Of a stretch of DNA of 64,000 nt, positions 36,796-43,086 are shown piece after piece. Positions within the stretch are counted from its first letter, which is position 1; each line of letters starts with the position of its first letter. Below the pieces are notes generated by a model, which ran no database searches, was not told the DNA's origin, and saw only the letters and a program-made list of their open reading frames with translations. The DNA is from Anaeromyxobacter dehalogenans 2CP-1 (GTDB lineage: Bacteria > Myxococcota > Myxococcia > Myxococcales > Anaeromyxobacteraceae): NCBI RefSeq assembly GCF_000022145.1, contig NC_011891.1:434001-498000 (forward strand). The letters run 5' to 3'. The position numbers were made by a program, and so were the translations under genes.

Positions 36796-36873
36796 TCGGG
36801 GTGGGAGGGGGCGGCCGGCCGCCCCGACCGGCCGCGCGCCGGGGCGGACGCCCCGGGCGGACCCGGGCGGACC

Positions 36874-38010
36874 TTGCAACGCGCGCCGCGCCCCCGCATC
36901 CGATGGGTTTCGCCGCGGAGGTCGCCCGTTCCATCCACGAGCCCGAACCCCGAAGTCCTCTCCGTCGGCCGCGCGCTGCCCGCGACCGTCGCCGACCAGG
37001 AAACGCTCATCGCGGCGCTCTCGGCCCACTGGGGCGAGGCGCACTTCAACACCGGCCGGCTGGCCGAGCTCCACCGGGCCACCGGGGTGGCCCGGCGCCA
37101 CCTCGCGCTCCCGCTCGAGGCGTACCCGCGCCTGGGCGGCTTCGGCGAGGCGAACGCCGCCTACGCCCGCGCCGGCGCGGAGCTGGGCGAGGCGGCGGTG
37201 CGCGACGCGCTGGAGCGGGCCGGGCTCGCGCCCTCCGACGTCGGCCACCTGTTCTACGTGACCGTCACCGGCGTCGCGACCCCGTCGCTGGATGCACGGC
37301 TGGTGAACCGCATGGCGCTGCCGCGCTCGGTGAAGCGGACGCCCATCTTCGGCCTGGGCTGCCTGGCGGGCGCGGCGGGCCTGGCGCGCGCCTCGGACGC
37401 GCTGCGCGCGTTCCCGGACGAGGTCGCGGTGCTGCTGTCGGTGGAGCTCTGCTCGCTCACGCTGCAGCGGGACGACGCCTCGATGGCGAACGTGATCGCG
37501 ACCGGGCTGTTCGGCGACGGCGCGGCGGCGGTGGTGCTGGGCGGCGGGGCGCGCCCGGCGACGGCGCGGCCCCGCGGGCCGGAGGTGGTCGCCACCGCGT
37601 CGGTGCTCTACCCGGACACCGAGTGGGTGATGGGCTGGGAGGTGGTGGACGGCGGCTTCAAGGTGCTGCTGTCCTCGAAGGTGCCCGACGTCATCGCCGC
37701 GAACCTCGGCGCGGACGTGGACCGCTTCCTCGGCGCGCACGGACTCGACCGCGGGCGCATCCGGCACTGGGTCGCGCACACCGGCGGCCCGAAGGTGCTG
37801 GAGGCGGTGGGCGGGGCGCTCGGGCTGCCGCGCGCGGCGCTGGAGCGCTCCTGGCGCTCGCTCCACGACATCGGGAACCTCTCCTCGGCCTCGGTCCTGT
37901 TCGTGCTCGGCGACCTGCTCGACTCGGGCGAGGCGCGGCCGGGCGACCTCGGGCTGCTCGCCGCCATGGGCCCCGGCTTCGCGGCCGAGCTGGTGCTGCT
38001 GCGATGGTGA
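36874..38010 (+). CDS. Type III polyketide synthase (chalcone/stilbene synthase family)
   Basis: 378 residues. The Cys-His-Asn triad of type III PKS is C163 (FGLGCLAGAAG), H302 (WVAHTGGPKVL) and N335 (HDIGNLSSASVL). It probably condenses malonyl units onto a long acyl starter to give alkylpyrone or alkylresorcinol-type products. TTG at 36874 is the only upstream start in this frame; the ATG at 36903 is out of frame. The first of four tightly packed genes including an ACP and a fatty-acyl-AMP ligase, so acyl transfer from AMP to ACP to PKS is likely. Confidence 0.88.
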   Translation: MQRAPRPRIRWVSPRRSPVPSTSPNPEVLSVGRALPATVADQETLIAALSAHWGEAHFNTGRLAELHRATGVARRHLALPLEAYPRLGGFGEANAAYARAGAELGEAAVRDALERAGLAPSDVGHLFYVTVTGVATPSLDARLVNRMALPRSVKRTPIFGLGCLAGAAGLARASDALRAFPDEVAVLLSVELCSLTLQRDDASMANVIATGLFGDGAAAVVLGGGARPATARPRGPEVVATASVLYPDTEWVMGWEVVDGGFKVLLSSKVPDVIAANLGADVDRFLGAHGLDRGRIRHWVAHTGGPKVLEAVGGALGLPRAALERSWRSLHDIGNLSSASVLFVLGDLLDSGEARPGDLGLLAAMGPGFAAELVLLRW

Positions 38011-38306
38011 GCGCCCGGGAGGTCGGCCAGCCGGCGGGGGACGACGCGGAGGGGCGCGTGGCGGCGGAGATCGTGCGGATCGCCCGGGACGAGCTGCGAC
38101 TCGACGGCGCGCACGCCGCGCTGGCGGCCGGGCGCGACGCGCCGCTCGTGGACGCCCTCGACTCGCTCGCGCGGCTCTCGCTGGCGGTCGCGGTCGAGGA
38201 CCGCTTCCGGATCGCGCTCGACGACGAGGCCGGCCTGGCGGTCCGGACGCTCGGCGACCTCGCGCGGCTGGTGGTGGCGCGCGCCGCGCCGGAGCTGCTG
38301 CCGTGA
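38004..38306 (+). CDS. Acyl carrier protein
   Basis: 100 residues. The phosphopantetheine serine is S54 in VDALDSLARLSLAVAVEDRF. ATG 38004 overlaps the PKS stop by seven bases and its own stop overlaps the next start (GTGA), so it is cotranslated in the polyketide operon. It likely receives the fatty acyl group from the downstream ligase. Confidence 0.85.
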   Translation: MVSAREVGQPAGDDAEGRVAAEIVRIARDELRLDGAHAALAAGRDAPLVDALDSLARLSLAVAVEDRFRIALDDEAGLAVRTLGDLARLVVARAAPELLP

Positions 38307-40063
38307 GGCTGCGCGGGCCGCCCCAGCCGCCGCCGCGCCACACCACGCTGGTGCACGCGCTGGCGGCCGCGGCCGCGCACCCCTCCGGCGCGACCTTCCT
38401 CGACCTGCACGAGCGCGAGACGTCCCTGCCCTGGTCGGAGGTCCGCGCCCGGGCCGAGCGCGCCGCCGCCAACCTCGTCCACCTCGGCATCCGGCGCGGC
38501 GATCGGGTCGCCATCGTGCTCCGGACCGAGCCGGCCTTCCTGGACGCGTTCTTCGGCGCCTGGCTGGCCGGCGCGGTGCCGGTGCCGCTCTACCCGCCGG
38601 TGCGGCTGGGCCGGCTCGACGCGTACGCGGTGGACACCGGCCGGATGATCCAGGTGGCCGGGGCGCGCCTGGTCGTCTCCGCGGGCGGCACGCGGCGGCT
38701 GCTCGGCGGCGCCGTCGAGCGGGGCGGGCCGGAGCTCGGGTGCGTGGACGTGTCGGCGCTCTCGGCGCTGCCCGCCCGCATCGCGCGCGAGCCGGAGCCG
38801 GACGCGCTCGGCCTGGTGCAGTTCTCCTCCGGGACGACGGTGGACCCGAAGCCGGTCGCGCTCACCCACCGCGCGCTCGCGGCCATGACCGACGCGCTGG
38901 TCGCGGCGACCTCGGCGGGCCCGGACGACGTGCTCGTGTCGTGGCTGCCGCTCTACCACGACATGGGCCTCATCGGCTGCCTGCTCGCCGCGATGAGCTA
39001 CCCGGGTCCGCTCGTGCTCATCCCGCCCGAGCACTTCCTCACCCGCCCCGCGCTCTGGCTGCGCGCGCTGGCCCGGCGACGCGGCACCATCTCGGCCGCG
39101 CCCAGCTTCGCGTACGCGTACGCGGCCGACCGGGTGCAGGACGCCGACCTCGCCGGCCTCTCGCTCGCGCCGGTGCGGCTGCTGCTCGACGGCGCCGAGC
39201 CGGTCTCGGCGGTGGCGCTGCGCCGGTTCGCCGAGCGCTTCGCGCCGCACGGGCTCGACCCGCGGGCGCTCGTGCCCGTGTACGGCCTCAGCGAGGCGGC
39301 GCTGGCGGTGACGTTCGCGCGGCCCGGCGGACCGCTCGGCGGGCTCGGCGTCGACGCGGCCCGGCTCGCGTCGGAGGGCGTGGTCGCGCCCGGCGGGCGG
39401 GAGGTGATGCCGGTCGGGACCCCGGTCCCGGGCGTCGAGGTCGAGCTGCGCACCGAGGCCGGGGCGCCGGTGGGGGAGGGGCGGATCGGGCGCGTGTTCG
39501 TGCGCGGCCCGGCGCTCATGCGCGAGTACCTGGGCGACCCCGAGGCGACCGCGCGCGCGCTCCGGGGTGGATGGCTCGACACCGGCGACCTCGGCTTCGT
39601 GGTGGACGGCGCGCTCCACCTCCACGGCCGCGCCCGGGACCTCGTGATCGTGCGCGGCGCGAACCACGCGCCGGAGGAGTTCGAGGCGCCGCTCGCGGCG
39701 CTCCCCGGCCTGCGCCCGGGCTGCGCGGTGGCGCTCGGCTTCGAGCCGGAGGGCGGCGCCGGCGAGGCGCTGCTCGTGCTCGCGGAGCGCGCGCGAGACG
39801 AGGAGACCCCGGATGGCGAGCTGGAGGCGCGGGTCCGGCGCGCGGTGCTGGCGGCGACCGGCATCGCGCCGCACACCGTGCGGCTGCTCGCGCCCGGCAC
39901 GCTCCCGCGGACGTCCTCGGGCAAGCTGCGGCGCGCCGAGGCGCTGCGCCGGTTCCAGGCGGGGACGCTCACGCCGCCGCAGCCGGTGAGCGCGATCCGC
40001 CTCGCCCTCGCCGCCGCCCGCTCGCAGCTCGCCTTCGGGCGGTCGCGTCGCCGCGGGGGCTGA
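38303..40063 (+). CDS. Fatty-acyl-AMP ligase (FAAL-type)
   Basis: 586 residues of the ANL adenylating superfamily. LVQFSSGTTVDPKPVALTH, LPLYHDMGLIG, YGLSEAALAVTF, GWLDTGDLGF and LPRTSSGKLRR are typical. The HDMGLIG segment and lack of a clear CoA-ligase signature point to a fatty-acyl-AMP ligase that loads an ACP rather than CoA. GTG 38303 overlaps the ACP stop (GTGA). It probably supplies the PKS starter. Confidence 0.88.
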   Translation: MRLRGPPQPPPRHTTLVHALAAAAAHPSGATFLDLHERETSLPWSEVRARAERAAANLVHLGIRRGDRVAIVLRTEPAFLDAFFGAWLAGAVPVPLYPPVRLGRLDAYAVDTGRMIQVAGARLVVSAGGTRRLLGGAVERGGPELGCVDVSALSALPARIAREPEPDALGLVQFSSGTTVDPKPVALTHRALAAMTDALVAATSAGPDDVLVSWLPLYHDMGLIGCLLAAMSYPGPLVLIPPEHFLTRPALWLRALARRRGTISAAPSFAYAYAADRVQDADLAGLSLAPVRLLLDGAEPVSAVALRRFAERFAPHGLDPRALVPVYGLSEAALAVTFARPGGPLGGLGVDAARLASEGVVAPGGREVMPVGTPVPGVEVELRTEAGAPVGEGRIGRVFVRGPALMREYLGDPEATARALRGGWLDTGDLGFVVDGALHLHGRARDLVIVRGANHAPEEFEAPLAALPGLRPGCAVALGFEPEGGAGEALLVLAERARDEETPDGELEARVRRAVLAATGIAPHTVRLLAPGTLPRTSSGKLRRAEALRRFQAGTLTPPQPVSAIRLALAAARSQLAFGRSRRRGG

Positions 40064-40066
40064 GCG

Positions 40067-41161
40067 GTGGTGCGGCTCCGCGACGCCGTGGTGGTGGGCG
40101 GCGGACCGGCGGGGCTCGCCTTCGCCGCCGCCGCGGCCGCGCGCGGGCTCGACGTGCTCGTGCTGGAGCGCCGGCGGGGACCGGTCGACAAGGCGTGCGG
40201 CGAGGGCATCCTCCCGGCCGGCGTGGCCGCGCTCGAGCGCCTCGGGCTGCGCGCGCGCCTCGGGCCGGCGCAGGCGCGGCCCCTGCGCGAGCTGCGCTGG
40301 GTGGACGCGTCGGGGGCCGCGGCCAGGCTGGTGCTGCCCGGGCCGGGAGGGCTGGGGGTGCGGCGGCTGGCGCTCGAGGCCGCGCTCCGCGCGCGGGCGC
40401 GGGAGGCCGGCGCGGAGCTCCAGGAAGGCGCCGAGGTGACGGAGCACCGCGTGCTCGCCGACCGGGTGCGGATCGCGGTCGCGGGCGGCGCGGCGGCGGA
40501 AGGGCGGGTGCTCGTCGCCGCGGACGGGCTCGGCTCCCCCACGCGGCGGCGGGCCGGCCTGGAGCGGCCCGTGCGCGCGCCGGAGCGCTTCGGGGTCCGG
40601 CGCCACGTGGACGTCCCGGACGCCGGCGACGCCGTCGAGGTGCACTTCGGGGACGGGGTGGAGGCCTACGTGACGCCGGTGGGCCCGCGGCAGGTCGGGG
40701 TCGCGTTCCTGTTCGAGCGCGGGGCGGCGCGCTCGTTCGAGGCGCTGCTCGGGCGGTTCCCGGCGCTCGCGGCGCGGCTCGAGGGGGCGGCCTTCGCGAG
40801 CCCGGCCCGCGGCGCCGGCCCCCTGGCGCGCGCCGCCCGGGCGCGCGTGGCGGACCGGCTCGTGCTGCTCGGCGACGCCGCCGGCTACCTGGACGCCGTC
40901 ACCGGGGAAGGGCTCTCGCTCGCCTTCGGGTGCGCCCTCGACCTCGCCGCGCTGCTCCCGGGCGCGCTGGCCCGCGGCGCCACCGCCCGCGACCTCGGGG
41001 CCTACGAGGCCGCGTGGCGGCGCCGCTACGGACCGTACGCCCGCTGGACCCGGCTCGTGCTCGCGCTCGCGCGCCACCCGGCCGTGCGGCGGCGCGTCAT
41101 CGCCCTCGCGGCCGCGGCCCCGCGCCCGTTCGAGCGGGCGGTCGCGGCCGCGGTGGGGTGA
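40067..41161 (+). CDS. FAD-dependent oxidoreductase (geranylgeranyl-reductase/PHBH-like)
   Basis: 364 residues from GTG at 40067, three bases after the ligase stop. N-terminal dinucleotide fold VVVGGGPAGLAFA, then KACGEGILPAGVAALERLG and LGDAAGYLDAVTGEGLSLAF, as in flavin monooxygenases and geranylgeranyl reductases. In this cluster it may hydroxylate or reduce the polyketide. Quinone or lipid reduction is an alternative. Confidence 0.85.
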   Translation: MVRLRDAVVVGGGPAGLAFAAAAAARGLDVLVLERRRGPVDKACGEGILPAGVAALERLGLRARLGPAQARPLRELRWVDASGAAARLVLPGPGGLGVRRLALEAALRARAREAGAELQEGAEVTEHRVLADRVRIAVAGGAAAEGRVLVAADGLGSPTRRRAGLERPVRAPERFGVRRHVDVPDAGDAVEVHFGDGVEAYVTPVGPRQVGVAFLFERGAARSFEALLGRFPALAARLEGAAFASPARGAGPLARAARARVADRLVLLGDAAGYLDAVTGEGLSLAFGCALDLAALLPGALARGATARDLGAYEAAWRRRYGPYARWTRLVLALARHPAVRRRVIALAAAAPRPFERAVAAAVG

Positions 41162-41327: not shown

Positions 41328-42293
41328 ATGCGGATCCGGTTCGCCCTGCCGGTGGCGGCGCTGGCGCTCCAGGCGTGCGCCACCGTCTCGCAGCCTCCGG
41401 TGGAGGTGGAGTCCCCCGTCCCCAAGGCCGCCCAGGTCGCTGCCCAGCAGCAGGCGCAGGCGCCCGCGCCGTCGGCCAAGCGCTACAAGACCCGGATCGC
41501 CATCGCGCGGTTCACGAACGAGACGAGCTACGGCCGCTCGCTGCTGAACGACGCCGATCTCGATCGGATCGGCAAGCAGGCCTCCGACATGCTGGCGTCG
41601 CGCCTCGTCATGTCGGGCAACTTCGTGGTGCTCGAGCGCCCCGATCTGCAGAAGCTCGAGCGCGAGCAGGCGCTCCGGGGCGTCGCCGGCCTGGTGGGCG
41701 CCGACACGGTGATCTCCGGCTCGGTGACCGAGTTCGGCCGCTCGGTCGGGGGCAAGAAGGGCTTCCTCAGCAGCACCAAGGTCCAGACCGCCCGCGCCAA
41801 GGTGGACATCCGCCTGGTGGACGTGAAGACCGGCCACGCGTACTTCTCCGCGCTCGGCGCCGGCGAGGCGAGCACCGAGTCCGGCGAGATCGCCGGCTTC
41901 GGCAGCCGCGCCGAGTACGACGCGACCCTGAACGACCGCGCCATCGCGGCCGCGATCTCCGACGTGATCGACCGCCTGGTCTCCACGCTCGCCGCCCGCC
42001 CCTGGCGCTCCGACATCCTGGAGGTGCAGGGCAGGCAGGTGTTCATCTCCGGCGGCCGCCACCAGGGCGTCCGCGAGGGCGACGTGCTCGCGGTGATGGA
42101 GGCGGGCAACACGGTGAAGAGCCGCCAGACCGGGTTCGAGGTGGCGCTCCCGCCGAAGCGCGTCGGGACGATCAAGGTGCTGTCGCTGTTCGGCGACGGC
42201 GAGACGAGCGAGGGCGCCGTGTGCGAGGTGACGTCCGGCACCATCGAGAAGGCCGTCCTCCCCAAGCTCTTCGTGGCCGAGGCCACGCCGTGA
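41328..42293 (+). CDS. CsgG/HfaB-like outer-membrane lipoprotein
   Basis: 321 residues. Signal peptide with lipobox LQACAT, a Gln/Ala/Pro linker, then a CsgG-type domain (KTRIAIARFTNETSYGRSLL, LASRLVMSGNFVVLERPDLQKL, GADTVISGSVTEFGRSVG). CsgG makes the curli export pore. Here there are no curlin genes, and the neighbours are a DUF4810 and a DUF799 lipoprotein, as in the three-gene GNA1162 cluster of Neisseria. First gene of a four-gene operon; GGAGGAGAG precedes the ATG. Confidence 0.88.
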   Translation: MRIRFALPVAALALQACATVSQPPVEVESPVPKAAQVAAQQQAQAPAPSAKRYKTRIAIARFTNETSYGRSLLNDADLDRIGKQASDMLASRLVMSGNFVVLERPDLQKLEREQALRGVAGLVGADTVISGSVTEFGRSVGGKKGFLSSTKVQTARAKVDIRLVDVKTGHAYFSALGAGEASTESGEIAGFGSRAEYDATLNDRAIAAAISDVIDRLVSTLAARPWRSDILEVQGRQVFISGGRHQGVREGDVLAVMEAGNTVKSRQTGFEVALPPKRVGTIKVLSLFGDGETSEGAVCEVTSGTIEKAVLPKLFVAEATP

Positions 42294-42301
42294 GGTACGC
42301 C

Positions 42302-42604
42302 ATGCGGAACGTGGTCTTCGCGGCGGCGGCCGCCGCGCTGGTGGCGGGCTGCGCCATGCCGCAGACGGTCGTGAAGACGGTCGAGAGCCGCCCCAGCCTG
42401 GCGGTGGCGGGCGCGCCCGCCGGCGCCGTGCTGGTGGTCGACGGGCAGCCGGTGGGCGAGGCGAGCGCGTACGACGGCAACCCCACCGTGCTGCGCGTCG
42501 AGCCGGGCACGCACCAGGTGGAGATCCGCGACCCGTCCGGCGCCGCGGTGTACCGCCAGACGGTGTTCGTGGAGAGCGAGCTGAAGACGGTGAGGGTGCA
42601 CTGA
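42302..42604 (+). CDS. Small lipoprotein with PEGA-like domain
   Basis: 100 residues. Signal peptide with lipobox LVAGC (C16), then one PEGA-like repeat (PAGAVLVVDGQPVGEAS and RVEPGTHQVEIRD). ATG 42302 with GAGG upstream is chosen; GTG 42290 would add four residues and overlap the previous stop. PEGA domains are surface-associated beta units. This gene is an addition to the usual three-gene CsgG/DUF4810/DUF799 set. Confidence 0.75.
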   Translation: MRNVVFAAAAAALVAGCAMPQTVVKTVESRPSLAVAGAPAGAVLVVDGQPVGEASAYDGNPTVLRVEPGTHQVEIRDPSGAAVYRQTVFVESELKTVRVH

Positions 42605-43086
42605 TGCGCGCGTCCCTCCGCGCGGTCCTCGTCCTCGCCGCGACCGCGGCCCTGCTCCAGGGGTGCGCGGGGCGCACGCTCTACCGCTGGGGCGCGTACG
42701 ACGACGCGCTGTACGCCCACTACAAGAACCCGCAGGACCGCGAGGCGTTCGTCGAGCGCCTGCGCGTCGTCATCGACGAGGCGGACCAGGCCGGGGAGAA
42801 GGTCCCGCCGGGCTGCTACGCCGAGTACGGCTACGCGCTCTACGAGGAGGCCAGGTACGAGGACGCCTCGCGCTACTTCAAGCTGGAGCGCGAGAGGTGG
42901 CCCGAGTCCGGCGTGCTCATGCAGAAGATGATCGGCCTCGCCGACCGGCGCGGGGGCAAGGAGCCGGTGCCGCCCGCGCCGGCGAAGCCCGCCAGCGCCC
43001 CGCCGAAGGCCACCAAGGCGCCCGCGAAGGCGCCGGCCAAGGCCGCCGCCACGCACGGCCCGGCCGGCGCGCTGGAGCGGAGGTGA
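42604..43086 (+). CDS. DUF4810-family lipoprotein
   Basis: 160 residues. Lipobox LLQGC, then TLYRWGAYDDALYAHYKNP and the helical YAEYGYALYEEARYEDASRYFKLE segment typical of DUF4810 (TPR-like). It ends in a Pro/Ala/Lys-rich tail (APAKPASAPPKATKAPAKAP) that may span the cell-wall layer. ATG overlaps the preceding stop (TGATG). Partner of the CsgG-like and DUF799 proteins; molecular role unknown. Confidence 0.85.
   Translation: MRASLRAVLVLAATAALLQGCAGRTLYRWGAYDDALYAHYKNPQDREAFVERLRVVIDEADQAGEKVPPGCYAEYGYALYEEARYEDASRYFKLERERWPESGVLMQKMIGLADRRGGKEPVPPAPAKPASAPPKATKAPAKAPAKAAATHGPAGALERR

Follow-up and report, generated by a model that had tools for sequence, protein, structure and literature searches.

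A run of four genes in Anaeromyxobacter dehalogenans 2CP-1, encoding a type III polyketide synthase (PKS), an acyl carrier protein (ACP), a fatty-acyl-AMP ligase (FAAL) and a flavoprotein, raises the question of how its polyketide is started, what it becomes and whether the cluster is a new one. We analyzed these genes within a window of 64,000 nucleotides (434001-498000 of the contig), the whole stretch of DNA under study. The cluster is genuine, shows good conservation and is nothing unusual for its lineage, an already-known operon type from which one tailoring gene is missing. With good probability, it is the Anaeromyxobacter orthologue of the ftp-type phenolic-lipid operon of Myxococcus minus its methyltransferase (MT), working by the pathway that we propose below.

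The PKS gene, of the FtpA/PKS11 type, was called at 36874..38010 on the + strand, its true start being uncertain. The ACP gene (38004..38306, +) overlaps it by 7 bases and carries the phosphopantetheine serine, Ser54, at codon 38163. The FAAL gene (38303..40063, +) overlaps the ACP gene by 4 bases, and the gene for an FAD-dependent monooxygenase/oxidoreductase (40067..41161, +; group A / flavin-halogenase / geranylgeranyl [GG]-reductase fold) begins 3 bases past the FAAL stop. Pfam and NCBIfam placed the PKS in the chalcone/stilbene synthase type, the ACP among phosphopantetheine proteins and the flavoprotein in the FAD-binding monooxygenase/geranylgeranyl-reductase type, and PDB sequence matches agreed with the family assignments of the cluster proteins. 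Measured against two close relatives, dN/dS of the four genes was 0.13 to 0.37, which indicates purifying selection and thus maintained proteins rather than chance open reading frames (ORFs) of a GC-rich genome; the same gene run recurs in dozens of genomes. The layout given in the preliminary description, four ORFs with 7- and 4-base overlaps and a flavoprotein downstream, was borne out by the ORF list, the Pfam/NCBIfam and PDB matches and dN/dS.

The upstream neighbor is an HtrA-like protease gene, and downstream lie genes for a CsgG-type lipoprotein, a DUF4810 protein, a TPR protein and GpsA. Flanking genes were rejected as cluster members, since recurrence as a group is limited to the four genes. 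The CsgG-type and DUF4810 lipoprotein genes directly downstream (41328-43086) resemble a separate outer-membrane lipoprotein operon.

Conservation was assessed in the 42 loci, the window included, that had 5 kb or more of sequence downstream and a PKS identity of no less than 45%. The order PKS-(MT)-ACP-FAAL-FAD, where FAD stands for the flavoprotein gene, was found in 34/42 loci, 28 with the MT and 6 without; PKS-MT-ACP-FAAL and PKS-ACP-FAAL occurred once each. Loci without ACP-FAAL showed PKS-MT-FAD (2), PKS-FAD (1), PKS-MT (1) or the PKS alone (2). Across Myxococcia, identity was 58 to 75% for the PKS, 50 to 78% for the FAAL and 45 to 70% for the flavoprotein, and 115 of the 147 genomes of the class that were searched had a PF02797 match. 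All nine Anaeromyxobacter genomes searched (G000 and G013 to G020) have the PKS, most with the ACP-FAAL part in reach. The PKS tree and a tree of joined PKS, FAAL and flavoprotein sequences both track bacterial groups, which indicates that the operon is old and largely passed down with the lineage in Myxococcia.

The full PKS-MT-ACP-FAAL-FAD operon was also seen in an Acidobacteria MAG (L015) and in an unclassified bacterial MAG (L023). Another Acidobacteria locus (L016) held PKS-MT-FAD only, the ACP-FAAL pair having apparently been gained or lost outside Myxococcota. In an Anaeromyxobacter MAG (L005, on the same contig as L076), a PKS with 71% identity had no ACP, FAAL, MT or FAD gene detectable beside it. 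Some Myxococcaceae carry a divergent second type III PKS, 31 to 33% identical to that of the window (L105, 6236-9135; L108, 7454-10336; L112, 1123-4036), with its own FAAL-like gene (35 to 36%) about 170 to 215 bp downstream; these pairs possibly represent another type of type III PKS with a FAAL partner.

Ring formation and the flavoprotein

Alignment placed the catalytic Cys of the PKS at codon 37360, a Trp at 37636, the His at 37777 and the Asn at 37876 (all +). The Trp aligns with ArsB Trp281 and PKS11 Trp230, and the Cys-His-Asn triad together with this Trp was invariant in 49/49 aligned FAAL-linked PKSs. In ArsB, this Trp is described as essential to resorcinol formation (PMC5916927, PMC9927152). 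From the conserved Trp and from FtpA, a resorcinol-type product class is indicated for the PKS, which would extend the acyl chain received from the ACP with malonyl- and/or methylmalonyl-CoA to an alkylresorcylic acid or alkylresorcinol. The statement in the preliminary description that the product is not predictable was thus too cautious; of the pyrone or resorcinol-type lipid suggested there, the resorcinol type is the one indicated, a pyrone being less likely although possible.

The same operon might instead make a long-chain alpha-pyrone as its main product, with the flavoprotein oxidizing or reducing the chain or the pyrone ring. The PKS of solved structure closest to that of the window in a PDB sequence search was PKS11 of Mycobacterium tuberculosis, described for methyl-branched alkylpyrones (the next match was CylI), and myxobacterial type III PKSs are described as having yielded alkylpyrones when expressed (PMC9231227). 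Most Myxococcus-group genomes, moreover, have a single PF02797 gene each, so that their alkylpyrone and ftp clusters are probably the same. Against this stand the retained Trp, the reported formation of alkylresorcylic acid by FtpA and a flavoprotein of ring-hydroxylase type, which suits a phenol better than a pyrone. We therefore regard an alpha-pyrone as unlikely to be the main product.

The structure model of the flavoprotein (mean pLDDT, 92.7) shows an aromatic-hydroxylase/halogenase fold. Its best fold matches in the PDB were PltA, Mpy16, PltM, PnpA, 3HB6H and PHBH, that is, flavin halogenases and hydroxylases of p-nitrophenol, 3-hydroxybenzoate and p-hydroxybenzoate; GG reductase was also matched. 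Although the top fold matches are halogenases, the halogenase motif WxWxIP is absent from the flavoprotein translation, which favors aromatic hydroxylation over halogenation; assignment as a flavin-dependent halogenase was rejected on this ground. Membership in the geranylgeranyl reductase family was likewise rejected, because the nearest single NCBIfam model (TIGR02032) scored 122.2 bits, under its curated cut-off of 158.8. For the oxidized or reduced product envisaged earlier, hydroxylation is favored by the fold and the missing motif, with reduction as a lesser possibility in view of the nearest model. Comparison across loci showed no flavoprotein residues of note changing along with MT loss.

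Returning to the resorcinol reading, the fold, the operon order and the srs/ftp precedent suggest that the flavoprotein would hydroxylate the ring, in a step that perhaps also removes the carboxylate, to give a long-chain hydroquinone or quinone. No O-methylation of the ring by this pathway is expected, as the ICMT-type methyltransferase is missing. As a reasoned prediction, the product is likely an unmethylated long-chain resorcylic acid or resorcinol, hydroxylated towards a hydroquinone or quinone.

Loading of the acyl chain

Pfam and NCBIfam placed the ligase among AMP-binding enzymes, and FAAL models clearly outscored those of CoA ligases: a FAAL family reached 413 bits, whereas the best general acyl-CoA ligase model reached 171. 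Residues W214, P216, M221, F269 and P99 correspond to W224, P226, M231, F279 and P107 of EcFAAL and are kept, as is the catalytic Lys541, and the FAAL-specific helix region could be aligned. In EcFAAL, W224, M231 and F279 are the residues that keep CoA out, and P107 and P226 are the accompanying prolines (PMC8460268). The CoA-excluding W, M and F and both prolines were invariant in 46/46 FAALs of the family, that of the window included, and the phosphopantetheine Ser of the ACP was invariant in 40/40. An M. xanthus FAAL loads its own ACP in vitro (PMC8460268); from the adjacent accessions, we infer that the pair assayed was the ftp pair. Family, residues and the tested M. xanthus pair together predict that the window FAAL would convert a free fatty acid to acyl-AMP and transfer it onto the dedicated ACP.

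It is quite unlikely, in our estimate, that the PKS is mainly fed by acyl-CoA, with the FAAL-ACP pair serving another step or merely as an alternative loader. Related operons without FAAL and ACP do exist, as in Streptomyces (L024) and the Acidobacteria locus L016, both PKS-MT-FAD, and FtpA is described as taking long-chain acyl-CoA starters in vitro (PMC5916927). FAAL and ACP nevertheless adjoin the PKS in 36/42 loci, every CoA-excluding residue is retained in the window FAAL, and a similarity search of the genome (5,029,329 bp, with one type III PKS) found no second FAAL at a similar level. Because FtpA is described with acyl-CoA starters too, acyl-CoA use by the PKS does not discriminate between the loading routes. 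At the three basic positions that bind the CoA phosphate in plant chalcone synthase, FAAL-linked PKSs tended to differ from those lacking such a partner; this trend is confounded with ancestry and was set aside.

Loading from fatty acid through acyl-AMP and acyl-ACP to the type III PKS, as first suggested for these genes in the preliminary description, is thus probably correct, being well supported by family, residues, the conserved operon and the description of FtpA acting with FAAL. It is not new, however, as the counterpart operon is cited as having been studied already in 2011 (Hayashi et al.).

The missing methyltransferase and the PKS start

In most related operons, an ICMT-family methyltransferase (PF04140) is encoded between PKS and ACP; at the window locus, this ICMT-type gene (METHYLTRANSFERASE) is missing from that position. 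The cluster picture drawn earlier holds for the four genes but missed this MT, present in most relatives yet absent here. A whole-genome search with the A. oryzae MT as query, which gave strong matches in two positive-control genomes, found no orthologue elsewhere in the 2CP-1 genome (best E = 0.11), and relocation of the gene was rejected as far as sequence search shows; a PF04140 search returned one distant ICMT protein. In Myxococcus-group loci, the PKS 3' end reads CGATGGTGA and the enclosed ATG is the MT start, whereas ATGGTGA at that site of the window is the ACP start. This is suggestive of a footprint of MT deletion, but it falls short of proof of a precise deletion, since the local sequence is constrained by the PKS C-terminus (Arg-Trp-stop).

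Among the loci read, A. oryzae (L006, 9083-9643) is the only member of the genus with the MT. It nests beside a sister species without the MT, which implies several losses, or one loss and a later regain. In the MT tree, its MT falls within the family clade but beside that of another genus (L067/L068), fitting either retention or regain. Two more losses were seen outside the genus (L078 and L105). Absence from most Anaeromyxobacter species and, independently, from at least two other lineages shows, at the level of gene content, that the MT is dispensable.

TTG at 36874 is the sole standard start codon in frame with the PKS. It sits inside a GGACCTTGC-type motif (36869..36877, +), part of a short conserved motif upstream of the PKS. 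Other Anaeromyxobacter species keep the motif ahead of their PKS gene even though it does not share the PKS frame there, and the TTG start adopted earlier is therefore doubtful; the rest of the PKS frame is unaffected. No match to a sigma-70 promoter was found in the upstream region, and the GGACCTTGC-type motif is a possible promoter element. The PKS genes of PSR-1 (L001) and of a 5,013,479-bp genome (L057) each have an ATG in frame, equivalent to 36903 in the window. Compared with both, the stretch 36903-36931 of the window carries a single additional base, located within about 36923-36927, and the ATG at 36903 is thereby shifted out of frame. This base may reflect a sequencing error or a mutation of the strain, or the PKS may start elsewhere; the one-base difference may affect the cluster in 2CP-1. 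That the cluster is decaying and makes no product in this strain, with the MT lost and the PKS start frameshifted so that a doubtful TTG is the only start left in frame, is very improbable given the purifying selection on all four genes, their intact bodies and the fact that intact operons of several further Anaeromyxobacter species lack the MT too.

Anaeromyxobacter is a metal- and organohalide-respiring genus. One may speculate, at long odds, that an unmethylated long-chain polyketide hydroquinone or quinone, formed by the MT-free operon on a chain from the dedicated FAAL-ACP pair, carries additional electrons when the cells respire at low oxygen, much as polyketide quinones are electron carriers in mycobacteria.

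Comparison with known systems

Pentapeptide-repeat resistance genes have served in other studies as a guide to alkylpyrone clusters of myxobacteria; a simple motif count with a strict threshold found none near the operon in the window or related loci. Alkylpyrones from a myxobacterial type III PKS operon are attributed to Hug 2019 in later papers (PMC9231227, PMC12766979). According to a 2025 survey (PMC12766979), a type III PKS cluster for alkylpyrones is conserved among Myxococcus and its relatives, and Anaeromyxobacter is listed as lacking it. By the single PF02797 gene of most Myxococcus-group genomes, the surveyed cluster is probably the ftp-type operon, and the orthologous operon in Anaeromyxobacter suggests that the absence entry in the survey needs rechecking.

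The Cys, His, Asn and Trp230 of M. tuberculosis PKS11, described for methyl-branched alkylpyrones, align with the window PKS. To our knowledge, PKS11 has no FAAL-ACP operon of the window kind. In the cylindrocyclophane pathway, CylI uses an ACP-bound, FAAL-activated chain. This type III PKS makes an alkylresorcinol and belongs to a larger cyanobacterial cluster with type I PKS modules, the halogenase CylC and CylK; alkylresorcinol units are part of the pathway (PMC8406957).

Comparison with known myxobacterial type III PKS clusters, proposed in the preliminary description, gives a match to the M. xanthus ftp operon, and this tie to a characterized operon removes any claim of a novel cluster. 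We took the ftp gene order and enzymology from papers citing Hayashi et al. 2011 and from the Myxococcus-group loci compared here. By the title of that paper and in the citing papers, FtpA makes alkylresorcylic acid with FAAL (PMC10896814, PMC5916927, PMC5006271), its products are oxidized further to alkylquinones in M. xanthus (PMC10896814), and the cluster is listed as stilbene synthase, methyltransferase, AMP-dependent synthetase and monooxygenase (PMC5006271). The ftp operon and the window, from bacteria of the same class, share a type III PKS, ACP, FAAL and monooxygenase in one operon, and the Myxococcus-group loci L097, L098 and L101 have the same order, with 52 to 62% identity per large gene; the ICMT-type MT between PKS and ACP is absent from the window. 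The MT-free version offers a natural four-gene system in which to ask if a type III PKS is supplied by an ACP that a FAAL has charged, and which of a resorcinol, a quinone or a pyrone results.

The three-gene srs/pkq operons (PKS, methyltransferase and oxidoreductase) make quinones, which are electron carriers in mycobacteria and occur in Streptomyces spores (PMC9927152, PMC5916927). The PKS and flavoprotein of srsABC (Streptomyces griseus) and pkqABC (Mycobacterium smegmatis) are homologous to those of the window, and their MT to that of the window's relatives; at the Streptomyces locus L024 (PKS-MT-FAD), PKS and flavoprotein are 59% and 45% identical to the window proteins. The srs and pkq operons have no FAAL and no ACP, whereas the window has both and lacks the methyltransferase, and it was rejected as an operon of this three-gene type. 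The Myxococcia operon looks like the srs/pkq trio with ACP and FAAL added, and the window cluster resembles this five-gene form with the MT taken out.
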